Positions 47,763-52,394 of a stretch of DNA of 64,000 nucleotides are shown piece by piece. The translations under genes were made by a program, and so were the position numbers. The stretch is from assembly GCF_013170805.1 (NCBI RefSeq), contig NZ_CP051293.1, positions 5,152,001 through 5,216,000 of the forward strand, read 5' to 3'. The notes below the pieces were generated by a model, which saw only the letters and a program-made list of their open reading frames with translations, ran no database searches and was not told where the DNA came from. The number at the start of each line of letters is the position of its first letter. Within the stretch, counting starts at the first letter, position 1. This DNA is from Mesorhizobium sp. NZP2077 (GTDB lineage: Bacteria; Pseudomonadota; Alphaproteobacteria; Rhizobiales; Rhizobiaceae).

Positions 47763-48035
47763 TCAGAGATAGCTGGCCAATGCCGCTGTCATGTCCTTGC
47801 TTGTCGCCACGGGAATGATCTCGAACTCGACCAGATCGTTCCATTCGATAGCCCAGCGCTGCAGCAGCGTAACGTCGTCGGTTTCCACCAGCAGGAAGCA
47901 GCGGCTCATATCCGCCGCGATCCAGCTGTGGTGCACGACAAGCTCATCCGGCTTCAGGCGGCCCCGATCGCGAAAGCGGCGGTAGATCTCCTTGCGGTCG
48001 CAGCCGGTGAAGTCCTCGATCACGATGAACTGCAT
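47763..48035 (-). CDS. DUF3303 family protein
   Basis: A 90-residue ferredoxin-like-fold protein (MQFIVIEDFTGCDRKEIYRRF, SWIAADMSRCFLLVETDD, LLQRWAIEWNDLVEFEIIPV). The pattern is that of DUF3303, a family of small cytoplasmic proteins of unknown function. ATG 48035 is preferred because AGGTGG lies 5 bases upstream. A GTG nine bases earlier is possible. A RIME-like repeat begins just upstream of the gene. Confidence 0.82.
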   Translation of the reverse strand: MQFIVIEDFTGCDRKEIYRRFRDRGRLKPDELVVHHSWIAADMSRCFLLVETDDVTLLQRWAIEWNDLVEFEIIPVATSKDMTAALASYL

Positions 48036-48047
48036 GTTTTCCACCTA

Positions 48048-48154: not shown

Positions 48155-49621
48155 CTATTGTCGCCCTGGCCGGTCGAGCCGCTCCAGGAACCACTGCGTC
48201 AGCCGCACCCAGACCTCGTCCTTCTCGCCGGAATCCTCCCAGCCATGGTCGAGGTTGGGGTTATCGTTGACCTCGATGACGAAGACGCCGTCCTTGGTCT
48301 CCTTGAGGTCGACACCATAGAGGCCATCGCCGATGCAGCGCGCCGCCTTGACCGCGGTCTCGACAACATGGGCCGGCGTTTCCTTCAGCGTGAAGGTCTT
48401 GATGCCGCCCTGGTCGGGCTTGCCATTGGCCTTGTGGTTGACGATCTGCCAGTGCTTCTTGGCCATCAGATAATGCACGGCAAAAAGCGGCTGACCACCG
48501 AGCACGCCAACGCGCCAGTCATATTCGGTGGGAATGAATTTCTGCGCGATGAGAAGGTCGGAATCCTCCAGCCACTCGGTCGCAAGCCGCGTCAGCTCCT
48601 CCAAATTCTCGCATTTCTTGACGCCGCGCGAGAAGGACGAATCCGGAATCTTCAGCACCAGCGGAAAGCCCAGCGTCTGCGCCGCAAGCTCCAGATCCGA
48701 CGTGCCGGCGATCATCACTGTCGGTGGCACCGGCACCTTGTTGTAGGCCATCAGCTCGTTGAGATAGACCTTGTTGGTGCAACGGATCATCGACAGCGGA
48801 TCGTCGATGACAGGCATGCCTTCCTGTTGAGCGCGGCGGGCGAAACGATAGGTGTGGTTGGAGATCGAGGTGGTCTCGCGGATGAACAGCGCATCGTAGT
48901 TCGCGAGCTTGGCAAGGTCCTTCCTGGTGATGGGCTCGATTTCGACCCCCATCTTTTCGGCGATCTTGGCCCAGTAGCGCAGCGACGAGATTTCCGACGG
49001 CGGCAGTTCCTCATGCGGATCGACCAGCGTGGCGAAGGTGTAGCGCGCCGGCGTGCGCCCCTTGGTGTCGCGCCACTCGCGGTTGGTGTAGGTCTCCAGG
49101 CACTGGATGAAGCTTTTTTCTTCGTCCTCGGTCATGCGCGCCAGCGGATGGAAGCCGATCTTGCGGATCGAGGCCCATTCGGCGCTGTCCTTGATGTGGA
49201 CCTCGAGTGCCGGCGCGCGGAACCAGTCGAACAACAGCTTGGCGAAACGGTCCCACACCTTGGAGGGGCCGATGCCGAAAAAGATGCAGACCTTGGCCGG
49301 AAAGTCGCCGCCGAGGTCCTTGCGGCATTTGTTGAGCGCCAGTTCCAGTTCCGGCAGCGCATGCTCATAGAGCTTGCGCTCCGACAGGTCGATCATCGTC
49401 TCCACGGTCGGAATGACCTTGTGGCCGCGCGAGCTCGCCAGCAGCGAGGCATAGTAGCCGCGGCTCTGGTAGCCGTAATTGTTCGATAGGTTGATGACCT
49501 TCGGCCGCTGGCCGCGAAATAGCGACGGATGCGCGAGATAGTCGCGATTGGTGATGATCTTGTGCGGTGTCGCCACCTGGTCGAGATCGCTCTGCCGGCC
49601 GGTAAGGATGACCCAGGTCAT
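48155..49621 (-). CDS. RimK-family ATP-grasp alpha-L-amino-acid/glutamate ligase
   Basis: A 488-residue protein. The first 270 residues form an extended RimK-like N-terminal part (VILTGRQSDLDQ..., NLSNNYGYQSRGYYASLLAS near 45-64). The ATP-grasp domain follows from about residue 285 (CTNKVYLNELMAYNKVPVPPT, shown in part), with ATP lysine in LVLKIPDSSFSRGV and the Mg-binding end VFVIEVNDNPNLDHG near 448-462. RimK-type enzymes add amino acids to peptides, proteins or small molecules. Its ATG overlaps the stop of the GNAT-C39 gene, indicating joint function. The substrate is unknown. Confidence 0.88.
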   Translation of the reverse strand: MTWVILTGRQSDLDQVATPHKIITNRDYLAHPSLFRGQRPKVINLSNNYGYQSRGYYASLLASSRGHKVIPTVETMIDLSERKLYEHALPELELALNKCRKDLGGDFPAKVCIFFGIGPSKVWDRFAKLLFDWFRAPALEVHIKDSAEWASIRKIGFHPLARMTEDEEKSFIQCLETYTNREWRDTKGRTPARYTFATLVDPHEELPPSEISSLRYWAKIAEKMGVEIEPITRKDLAKLANYDALFIRETTSISNHTYRFARRAQQEGMPVIDDPLSMIRCTNKVYLNELMAYNKVPVPPTVMIAGTSDLELAAQTLGFPLVLKIPDSSFSRGVKKCENLEELTRLATEWLEDSDLLIAQKFIPTEYDWRVGVLGGQPLFAVHYLMAKKHWQIVNHKANGKPDQGGIKTFTLKETPAHVVETAVKAARCIGDGLYGVDLKETKDGVFVIEVNDNPNLDHGWEDSGEKDEVWVRLTQWFLERLDRPGRQ

Positions 49622-50808
49622 TGTGTGTCGCGCTTCCCCAGAGTGATGGCGGCACGCAGTCCGTCGCGGCCGAACTGCGCCATGTTCATGAAGATGCCGT
49701 AGGGCACGGGAATGTTGGCGGCATCAAGGATGGTTTCCTGCCTCTCGTCCTCGACCCAGGGATCGTGGATCAGAATATGGTCGCCATCATCGCCGATGGC
49801 CAGCACCCAGTGCGGCACCTTCTTGCCGAACATCAGGAAGCCGCTGATCAGCACCAGTACCAGTTTTCCCTCGGCGATCGCGGCTCTGATGTCATCGATG
49901 CTGAATGAGCGGTAATTCACCGGGATGCCGTAAAGTTCCGCCCGGCGGCGAAAGTCGACCTGGGCCAATTCCATCACCCGGCGCTTGTCCTCGCTACGCA
50001 CCGACTGCAGGAACAATGCGCCGTAGAAGGAAACAAAGATCTCTGCCGCGAGCCCGCTTTCGTGTCCAGAGACAGCCAGGCCGAATGGCTCGCAGCCGCC
50101 CGGTCCCGACATCATGAAGACGGTCGTCGCCTCGCGCCAGAGGCGGATTTCCATCACCGGATCGGGCACGAAGCCCCGGTCGAAATTGGCCATGGCCATC
50201 ATCAGACAGCATGGACCGCAGGTGAACTCACAGGTCTGCTGATAGAACGGCACCCTAGTGGCGATCGGAATGTCGCCGCGCAAGGTTTTCTCATAGCGAA
50301 GCGCGGTTGCACCGTCCTCATAGTAGGCCGGCTCACGGCCGATCTTGCGGTAGCCGGCCTGCTCGTAGATGCGGATAGCTCGACTGTTGTCCTCACGCAC
50401 TTCGAGACGCAGCATCATGCGGTCGTGTTCGAACGCCGCCTCCTCCGCCGACGCTAGCAGCAAGCGGCCGACGCCCAGACCGCCAAAAAACGGACCCGTG
50501 GCTATGGAGTAGAGCCGTGCCACACCGCTGCCCTTGCGAAACAGCACGATCGCATAGCCGGCGACGCGGCCATCGACTTCGGCGACCAACGTCTCGGCCG
50601 TCTCGCGTTCGATGAACAGGCGAAAGGAGCGACGGGAGATACGATCGCTTGAAAAAACGGCTTTCTCGATGGCGGCGAGATCATCGACGTCAGACGCGCG
50701 GGCCGTGCGGATCTCGGCAGGCATGCGACTTGAGAAAACCTCGATTGCGTTGCGGAAACGGCCCCGGTCAAAAGCGTCGCAAACACCGGCCGAAGCGCCG
50801 GTATTCAT
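49618..50808 (-). CDS. GNAT acetyltransferase fused to C39-like cysteine peptidase
   Basis: A 396-residue two-domain protein. Residues about 30-180 are a GNAT domain with the acetyl-CoA loop GGLGVGRLLLASAEE near 109-123 and EVREDNSRAIRIYEQAGY. Residues about 185-390 are a C39/papain-like domain with oxyanion Gln190-191 and catalytic Cys197 (QQTCEFTCGPCCLMM), His333 (PHWVLAIGDDG) and Asp349 (ILIHDPW). All triad positions are filled. The start is uncertain: ATG 50808, TTG 50811, or ATG 50724 at MPAEIRTA. It is directly coupled to the RimK-like ligase. Confidence 0.87.
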   Translation of the reverse strand: MNTGASAGVCDAFDRGRFRNAIEVFSSRMPAEIRTARASDVDDLAAIEKAVFSSDRISRRSFRLFIERETAETLVAEVDGRVAGYAIVLFRKGSGVARLYSIATGPFFGGLGVGRLLLASAEEAAFEHDRMMLRLEVREDNSRAIRIYEQAGYRKIGREPAYYEDGATALRYEKTLRGDIPIATRVPFYQQTCEFTCGPCCLMMAMANFDRGFVPDPVMEIRLWREATTVFMMSGPGGCEPFGLAVSGHESGLAAEIFVSFYGALFLQSVRSEDKRRVMELAQVDFRRRAELYGIPVNYRSFSIDDIRAAIAEGKLVLVLISGFLMFGKKVPHWVLAIGDDGDHILIHDPWVEDERQETILDAANIPVPYGIFMNMAQFGRDGLRAAITLGKRDTQ

Positions 50809-50932
50809 CAAGCGCTATCGCTCCTTGATTAGGGCCGAATTGTGACAGTTTCCGCGGCGGCAAGGAAGTGCGCGGGCTTTGAACAGGATCGCTGTTTTGA
50901 TGGGCTGCCGGCTGCGAACAATTGCGACCAAC

Positions 50933-51724
50933 TCAGCTTGCGAGGCCAGCCAGAAGCTGGCCATAGGCACTCTTGGCCACGACCGCCAATTGCTCGCGCG
51001 GCAGCGAGCCGACAACGGCGCAGCCATAGCCCTTGTCCAGCCAGTAGACGGCCTGCGGGCCGTCCTGCGCCGACGCATAGGTGCCCTTGGCGTTCTCCGT
51101 CGATTCCGCGGTCACGAAGAGCGATATGCGCTCGCCCTTGTCGTCTTCGTAGAGCAGCATGGCGGCCTTGCTGTCGCCGGCCGGCAGCAACCGTCCGCCG
51201 ACCAGTTGAAAACCGTTCGCGGTCAAATCCGGCGCCACCAGCTTCAGCCCGACCCGGTTGGACAGCCAGGTCTGCAAATGATCCTTGTCGCTGGCCGGCA
51301 CTTCCACCGCATGCCGCTTCTCGGCGGCGTAGATGACATGGGCGGCGATCGCCTGTTCAGCCAGCTGATCTTGCGCCGGATCCTCCTGGCCGATGCCGTC
51401 GATGCCGGCAAAGTAGCCGCCAAATCCGCCCGTGGCCAAAAGCACGGCAGCGGCCGCGGCAAGCCACCAGCGCGAGCGCGGCAGCACAGCCCTAACAGGC
51501 GCTTCGCCGAGCACCACCTTGCGCAAGCGCGCGGGAACAGGCTCATCCAGCACGCCGGCAAAGGCTGAGCGCAACGCCTCCCGGTCGGCTGCGAAGCGGG
51601 CGTTTCTCGCCTTCATCTCCGGATTGGCATCGAGCCAAGCATCATAGGCGGCACGCTCGTCGGCCGGCAGTTCGCCGTCGAGCGCCATGTGGATGTCACG
51701 TTCGGAAAAATCGCGGCGGATCAT
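50933..51724 (-). CDS. Anti-sigma factor, single transmembrane helix, no zinc motif
   Basis: A 263-residue protein. Residues 1-75 form the anti-sigma domain (RDFSERDIHMALDGELPADE), residues 83-108 a transmembrane helix (RWWLAAAAAVLLATGGFGGYF), and the rest is periplasmic. The zinc motif H-x3-C-x2-C of many such factors is absent; the second part reads without cysteines. Its ATG overlaps the sigma factor stop (ATGA). It should hold the ECF sigma factor at the membrane until an envelope signal releases it. Confidence 0.86.
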   Translation of the reverse strand: MIRRDFSERDIHMALDGELPADERAAYDAWLDANPEMKARNARFAADREALRSAFAGVLDEPVPARLRKVVLGEAPVRAVLPRSRWWLAAAAAVLLATGGFGGYFAGIDGIGQEDPAQDQLAEQAIAAHVIYAAEKRHAVEVPASDKDHLQTWLSNRVGLKLVAPDLTANGFQLVGGRLLPAGDSKAAMLLYEDDKGERISLFVTAESTENAKGTYASAQDGPQAVYWLDKGYGCAVVGSLPREQLAVVAKSAYGQLLAGLAS

Positions 51725-52239
51725 TTCTCGACGATCCTTATCGTGCGGCGACGCGCCGTGTCATCCAGCAACCCGCGCAATTCCTCACGCCCGCGCGCAA
51801 TGCGCGACATCAGCGTGCCGGCGGGAACACCCAGAATGTTAGCGGCCTCGGCATAGGAAAAGCCTTCGATGGCAACCATGACCAGGGCCGCGCGCCTATC
51901 GGGGCTGATCGCTTGCAACGCATCCATGATCTCGCGCGAGGCGATGCTCTCCAGCTGCTCGGCCGGCTGAGCCACCCCCTCGCCCGCCTCCAGCGGCAGC
52001 ATTGCCGTTTCGCCGCGGCGGTTCACCTTGCGCATCTGGTCGATGAACAAATGATGCATGATCGTAAACAGCCACCTCCTGGGGCTTTCTCCTGTCTGCC
52101 AGTTGTCGAGCCGCGTGAGTGCGCGCTCGAGGCAGTCCTGGACGAGGTCGTCGGCAGAATCGCGATCGCGCACAAGCGAGCGTGCGTAACGGCGCAGGCG
52201 CGGTATTTCGCCAAGGATTGCTGCCTTCTTTTCGTCCAT
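51721..52239 (-). CDS. ECF-family RNA polymerase sigma factor
   Basis: A 172-residue sigma-70 of the extracytoplasmic function group. Region 2 includes DRDSADDLVQDCLERALTRL near residues 28-47 and WLFTIMHHLFIDQMRK. Region 4 includes ISPDRRAALVMVAIEGFSY and EAANILGVPAGTLMSRIARG near 137-156. ATG 52239 is chosen although the frame is open to 52338. It is followed by its anti-sigma gene with a four-base overlap. The regulon is unknown; autoregulation is likely. Confidence 0.9.
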   Translation of the reverse strand: MDEKKAAILGEIPRLRRYARSLVRDRDSADDLVQDCLERALTRLDNWQTGESPRRWLFTIMHHLFIDQMRKVNRRGETAMLPLEAGEGVAQPAEQLESIASREIMDALQAISPDRRAALVMVAIEGFSYAEAANILGVPAGTLMSRIARGREELRGLLDDTARRRTIRIVEK

Positions 52240-52394
52240 GACCGCTGGTTCTGAGGTCGCCCCTGTTGATCCCGATTGAACGCGCCTTCCCGGCGCGACG
52301 CAAGCGGCCAGCGCGAAGCGGTCCGCCGCCCCGGTCACCCAAGCAATGAGATAACGAGCCCATTGGCCGATTTATTCCCGGCCGGACTGAAATA

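Follow-up and report, generated by a model that had tools for sequence, protein, structure and literature searches.

A ligase gene overlapping a GNAT-peptidase fusion gene

The window, a stretch of 64,000 nucleotides (G000:C1:5152001-5216000 in the sampled genome set), carries two adjoining minus-strand genes in a genome that resembles Mesorhizobium, judging by the best named protein relatives. The open reading frame list and Pfam place a gene for an RLAN and RimK-like ATP-grasp ligase of 488 residues at 48155..49621, and the same sources together with the sequence place a gene for a GNAT-DUF3335 (C39-like) fusion protein of 397 residues, counted from a TTG start, at 49618..50811. The preliminary description had the two genes sharing an ATGA, and this four-base overlap was borne out on the minus strand at 49618..49621. 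The start of the fusion gene is possibly the TTG at 50811 (397 residues), the ATG at 50808 (396 residues), or the ATG at 50724 (368 residues), judging from an AAGGAG that stands 9 nt ahead of the TTG and from the many relatives annotated at 365-368 residues, which would match the last of the three. Protein searches, each among 8000 scored candidates, returned 1962 relatives for the GNAT-C39 protein and at least 8000 for the ligase. The flanks nearest the pair carry, by Pfam, DUF3303, LysR, sigma-factor, and anti-sigma-like proteins. The anti-sigma-like and sigma-factor genes (50933-52338), directly upstream of the pair and in its orientation, recur beside it in several related genomes and are possible regulators. 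The DUF3303 gene (47763-48044) comes after the ligase, again in the same orientation, and among relatives is found only in close ones.

In the ligase, Pfam and alignment locate the RLAN domain PF14401 at residues 26-172 (49106..49546, minus strand; 129.1 bits, cut-off 25) and the RimK-like ATP-grasp domain PF08443 at residues 283-459 (48245..48775, minus strand; 42.8 bits, cut-off 21). The long N-terminal part of about 270 residues, singled out in the preliminary description, consists of the RLAN domain and a RimK-like stretch ahead of the ATP-grasp domain. The idea that RLAN is itself a second pre-ATP-grasp domain was unsupported, as profile comparison with the RimK N terminus gave a probability of only 8.7%. 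Alignment of 135 ligases revealed that the ATP-grasp residues K284, K324, D438, E450, and N452 are identical in all 135 and that the RLAN residues N44, G55, Y57, S59, and P71 are kept in 134 rows, the remaining row being truncated there. The nearest curated families are LysX and RimK, with a score of 85.4 bits against TIGR00768 (RimK), under its cut-off of 143.4.

The fusion protein combines a GNAT domain (PF00583, 58 bits; 50266..50724, minus strand, with limits that are approximate and drawn from Pfam, NCBIfam, and a profile of partner GNATs) with a DUF3335 or "Peptidase_C39 like" cysteine peptidase domain (PF11814, 254 bits, residues 187-391; 49639..50253, minus strand, from Pfam and alignment). 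An alignment of 81 DUF3335 proteins, namely that of the window and 80 others, including three paralogues without RLAN nearby, showed Gln191, Cys197, and His333 (ATG numbering) in 81/81 and an acidic residue at position 349 (Asp 68 times, Glu 13 times); the GNAT residues are kept less strictly, e.g., G110 and G112 in 69/81. All residues of the catalytic set claimed earlier (Gln190, Gln191, Cys197, His333, and Asp349) are present in the window protein, and the Cys and His proved invariant among homologues, but Gln190 is poorly kept. Because this position is Gln in just 17/81 proteins, the oxyanion Gln is taken to be Gln191. The peptidase and ligase sites are invariant or nearly so, and selection therefore maintains them where the domains occur. 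The Pfam matches of the GNAT-PF11814 fusion include no ABC-transporter domain, and the C39-like domain is, on its sequence, of a different type from the bacteriocin/ABC-transporter C39 peptidases. A second DUF3335 protein is encoded elsewhere in the genome of the window (L061:7972-8886, in the region G000:C1:893253-893864), further paralogues (L062 and L063) occur in two same-genus genomes, and G197 has three DUF3335 copies in all; in L061-L063, the GNAT part is degenerate or missing, and no RLAN was found within the stretch examined.

Among curated models, the window GNAT comes nearest to RimI (TIGR01575), at 75.1 bits against a cut-off of 86.4, and the same genome has a separate RimI at 87.2 bits. 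The RimI model matched 25/25 partner GNATs and was the best-scoring model among them; the 12 for which bit scores were listed all fell below the cut-off (70.9-80.9), and the top-ranking partner (E 3.1e-25) may exceed it. Several resistance acetyltransferases were among the next-best models, and by sequence the window GNAT is near archaeal Ard1 and RimI structures. A profile built from 24 lone partner GNATs and the window GNAT gave scores of 145-206 bits to five GNATs fused to C39, 144-184 bits to four fused to a ligase, and 72, 96, 102, and 137 bits to four GNATs on viral contigs, compared with 57.5 bits for the genome's own RimI and 30-45 bits for six other GNATs of that genome. The window protein scored 194 bits but belongs to the training set; the two paralogues tried, L061 and L063, gave no match. 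According to these scores, the viral GNAT of L251 (72 bits) is only slightly nearer than RimI.

Composition and distribution of RLAN loci

The co-occurrence of the two architectures was surveyed in 299 genomes sampled from the phylum. RLAN was found in 56 and DUF3335 in 47, with both present in 46, DUF3335 alone in 1, and RLAN alone in 10. The two lie at most 5 kb apart in 44 genomes; seen from the other side, DUF3335 is absent from the 5 kb around 15 of the 59 RLAN places. The suggestion in the preliminary description that the genes form a joint system is strongly supported by these counts, since 46 of the 47 DUF3335 genomes have RLAN, 44 of them side by side, and the two genes are not usually apart. 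Their arrangement in the 44 genomes varies (same strand with DUF3335 first in 27, divergent in 13, RLAN first in 3, and convergent in 1), and a neighbourhood kept through four orientations points to a functional tie rather than inheritance of one operon. The pair is present in all nine sampled genomes of the genus, counting that of the window, and occurs on 11 plasmid records as well, most of which are large replicons.

The surroundings of RLAN were then compared across 134 loci, the window excluded: 54 of the 59 RLAN places in the sampled genomes, taken with flanks (leaving out the window, G055, G096, G197, and G274), and 80 named loci, which rank highest among 584 relatives and lean to Xanthomonadales and Pseudomonas. 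A GNAT adjoins RLAN in 125 of these loci (tblastn matches with E below 1e-10, at most 4.5 kb away), 75 with C39 and 50 without. In all 10 genomes that have RLAN but no DUF3335, the gene beside RLAN is a lone GNAT. Where no GNAT was counted, the RLAN or C39 neighbour stands at a sequence end (L120, L173, L179, L183, and L199) or the GNAT-C39 lies on another contig than RLAN (L078); L125, L192, and L198, not at a contig end, have no GNAT within 4.5 kb of RLAN by tblastn. On a tree of 84 ligases, 73 rows of which were scored for C39 (48 with, 25 without), the C39 state needs at least nine changes. Scoring was by locus, so that L078 was counted with C39 despite its GNAT-C39 being on another contig, and L081 and L075-L077 were counted without it although their genomes carry one elsewhere.

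Single-chain proteins extend this picture. In L084 (G247), GNAT, RLAN, and ATP-grasp lie within one open frame, and GNAT and RLAN share one protein in 40 of the 120 matches listed for this fusion, a figure that includes one doubtful (P0278) and one partial (P0282) case. Named examples come from Thalassospira, Cohaesibacter, Rhodothermales, and one unplaced pseudomonadote, and six single-chain fusions were confirmed with Pfam. P0278 would be a GNAT-C39-RLAN-ATP-grasp protein of 885 residues; it was not relied on because its DUF3335 match is incomplete, ending at 190 of 206, and its linker resembles a shifted frame by eye. The near-constant partner of the ligase thus looks like the GNAT, with a peptidase that comes and goes, and we consider a joint GNAT-ligase core highly probable. 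The preliminary description had grouped ligase, acetyltransferase, and peptidase as one set; a joint system stands, but the trio is not its unit, the GNAT being near-constant and C39 absent in 50/125 loci. Trimming would be no obligatory step, because the peptidase is optional.

Further genes recur less often. Pfam identified DUF2817, presumably an M14-like peptidase, near RLAN in 22/134 loci and DUF155 in 13/134. Of the 299 genomes, 40 have DUF2817, 56 have RLAN, and 25 have both (p 2e-11, a Fisher value that, like all those for co-occurrence here, ignores kinship among genomes); the 40 are genomes with strong DUF2817 matches (best E 1e-90 or lower; 64 genomes at E 0.001). In some gammaproteobacteria, DUF2817 is added near the pair, and the window's own genome has no match for either DUF2817 or DUF155. 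A conserved small peptide gene nearby, an idea raised in the preliminary description, did not emerge: the search for a precursor-peptide gene in 135 loci (2.5 kb flanks, 18-130 residues, E 1e-4) gave none that was convincing, with the largest small-ORF cluster reaching 16/135 loci. Clusters with at least three loci numbered 189, of which 43 contained the window or mixed groups; among the 25 of these 43 that were listed, 22 held the window and close kin only and 3 joined lineages, and in those 3, 60/61 ORFs fell inside longer frames.

RLAN-less ligases on viral contigs

Scanning of IMG/VR gave nine loci. The match left out RLAN in seven of them (L244, L245, and L247-L251), and a second scan recovered the same seven; L246 is cut by a contig end, and L252 has a partial RLAN match. 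ORFs were examined for six of the seven RLAN-less loci (not L245), and in four the viral GNAT gene shares 14-25 bases with the beginning of the RLAN-less ligase gene (L248:2493-3861, L249:2570-3882, L250:2496-3903, and L251:2591-3852); in L244 and L247, no GNAT was seen by eye within 3 kb. The ligase of L244 lies between phage terminase and portal genes (L244:1469-6396), and the contigs of L248 and L249 have integrases. Two neighbours of the L250 pair had no PHROG match. The L249 ligase had no family in PHROGs and no match in INPHARED, and INPHARED yielded two distant matches for the L244 ligase. No RLAN-less relatives were found in the 299 bacterial genomes, where 59/59 matches of the phage ligase were open frames of at least 473 residues at RLAN places.

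Comparison with described systems and readings of function

RLAN systems are not new as such. The Pfam note on PF14401 and Iyer et al. in 2009 reportedly described RLAN-ATP-grasp ligases beside GNAT-papain-like peptidases and predicted peptide synthesis, the Pfam note with stress on the fusion of GNAT and peptidase. GCS2, M20, ferredoxin, or ribosomal-protein genes are named as further neighbours in such systems. The amidoligase-acetyltransferase association that the preliminary description gave as an earlier prediction agrees in part with these accounts. The window has RLAN before a RimK-like ATP-grasp domain and an adjacent GNAT-peptidase fusion with intact Cys/His, i.e., the same domains in the same pairing, and its locus is an ordinary member of the RLAN/GNAT-papain-like neighbourhoods. 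Compared with those accounts, the present survey differs in an optional peptidase, a near-constant GNAT, GNAT-ligase fusions, and an RLAN-less phage form; the GNAT core, the fusions, and the phage form are new here as far as the open-literature matches show. An excerpt of one paper mentions DUF3335-GNAT fusions (PMC10318531), and the open-literature matches listed, which leave subscription journals mostly uncovered, included no experimental work on systems with RLAN or DUF3335. The locus is therefore regarded as belonging to an already described kind, for which those matches gave no product.

A functional analogy is offered by Ngg, the N-acetylglutaminylglutamine synthetase, which, according to an excerpt of its description (PMC8070244), is one polypeptide of GNAT and ATP-grasp parts that acetylates one glutamine and joins another to it, in an operon that includes a peptidase. 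As far as that excerpt goes, Ngg resembles the window pair in that a GNAT and an ATP-grasp enzyme belong to one system, with the GNAT leading; unlike the window ligase it has no RLAN, and its ligase part is not detectably close. The Ngg model TIGR03103 gave the window GNAT 18.4 bits against a cut-off of 569, the ligase was not among its matches, and no gene of the window's own genome exceeded the cut-off. A link to the NAGGN osmolyte system was rejected, Ngg occurring in 7/56 RLAN genomes (p 0.31, kinship ignored; no association). In G006, an Ngg gene is no more than some 6 kb from a cluster of GNAT-C39, DUF2817, and DUF155 genes (L080:1697-10809), and the RLAN gene of that genome is 2.1 Mb from this cluster, with a lone GNAT. 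RimK, in turn, shares with the window ligase the fold and the metal/ATP residues, and RimK-RimB sets a precedent for a ligase-peptidase pair (excerpt of PMC12239564); the window pair differs in its RLAN domain, its GNAT partner, and a peptidase that is cysteine-type, not retropepsin-like. RimI, the S18 N-acetyltransferase, is like the partner GNATs in being their best model and unlike the window GNAT in that the latter is sub-cut-off in a genome with its own RimI.

Our best reading, adopted tentatively and by analogy at close to even confidence, is that GNAT and ligase would work as one machine forming an N-acetyl-capped peptide bond, with the peptidase as an accessory. From its family, the ligase would use ATP to activate a carboxylate as acyl phosphate and join it to an amine, the GNAT would acetylate an alpha-amine of the same molecule with acetyl-CoA, and the C39-like peptidase may serve optionally in product trimming or turnover. 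Behind this reading stand the intact catalytic residues, the near-constant GNAT partner, the gene fusions, and the optional C39, whereas both reactions are taken from the families. By analogy with Ngg, the product would be a short non-ribosomal N-acetylated peptide; that it is a small molecule is an assumption that we hold with somewhat greater reserve. A short N-acetyl peptide is the first guess because Ngg acetylates and ligates glutamine with a single polypeptide chain, and protein modification follows close behind because of the RimI-like GNAT, the RimK-like ligase, and phage carriage. In the latter case, the ligase would add amino acids to a protein C terminus or side chain, as RimK does on S6, the GNAT would cap an alpha-amine, either on that protein or on the newly attached residue, and the C39 and DUF2817 peptidases would undo the modification, much as RimB counteracts RimK, a scheme that, taken as a whole, is quite possible without being probable. 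It draws on a ligase closest to LysX and RimK with the RimK-RimB precedent, on a GNAT closest to RimI and near the Ard1 structures, on the separate true RimI that leaves the window GNAT free for another target, on the viral contigs, and on a proposal (excerpt of PMC7824862) that ribosomal-type GNATs and R2K ATP-grasp ligases of phages modify host proteins. Two of these facts weigh against the short-peptide reading, as RimI is a protein acetylase and phage carriage suits a protein target better than an osmolyte; the absence of an Ngg association, the distance from the Ngg ligase part, the GNAT-less L125, L192, and L198, and L078 with its GNAT-C39 on another contig also count against it. What tells against a protein target is that no widely recurring target-like neighbour besides DUF2817 and DUF155 emerged from a rough clustering, in which longest-frame gene calls missed some genes (the target may lie elsewhere), and that a single-chain GNAT-ligase suits a small substrate at least equally well.

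Two other explanations were weighed. In microviridin pathways, a GNAT and a leader peptidase work alongside ATP-grasp ligases (excerpt of PMC13039773), and a RiPP-like maturation, with ligation and acetylation of a ribosomally made precursor and its cleavage by C39, would follow that model; the window pair differs from microviridin and other graspetide systems in its single ligase, its different peptidase, and the lack of a precursor peptide in our search, where small-ORF clusters stayed at or below 16/135 loci and the lineage-joining ones listed were inside longer frames. With a peptidase that is optional and not of the ABC-transporter type, this explanation is most improbable. A role in conflict or resistance, with the pair acetylating and conjugating a toxic amine or peptide, would agree with the scattered distribution (56/299 genomes), the 11 plasmid records, the viral contigs, and the resistance acetyltransferases among the next-best GNAT models; the constant presence in the 9 same-genus genomes speaks against it, and we consider it very unlikely. 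A more general proposal, which we regard as rather doubtful, is that a RimI-like GNAT and a RimK-like ligase constitute a minimal mobile module for N-acetyl-capped peptide bonds, common to bacteria and phages, with RLAN and peptidases as bacterial add-ons and host or phage proteins as the targets of the phage form.

RLAN is present in about a fifth of the sampled phylum genomes, and proteins of RLAN pairs are labelled "RimK family" and "RimI-like", although neither model accepts its counterpart in the window pair. The existence of a phage form points to a use for the reaction beyond a housekeeping pathway, and the GNAT-ligase core together with its natural single-chain fusions narrows the functional question to one in vitro assay.
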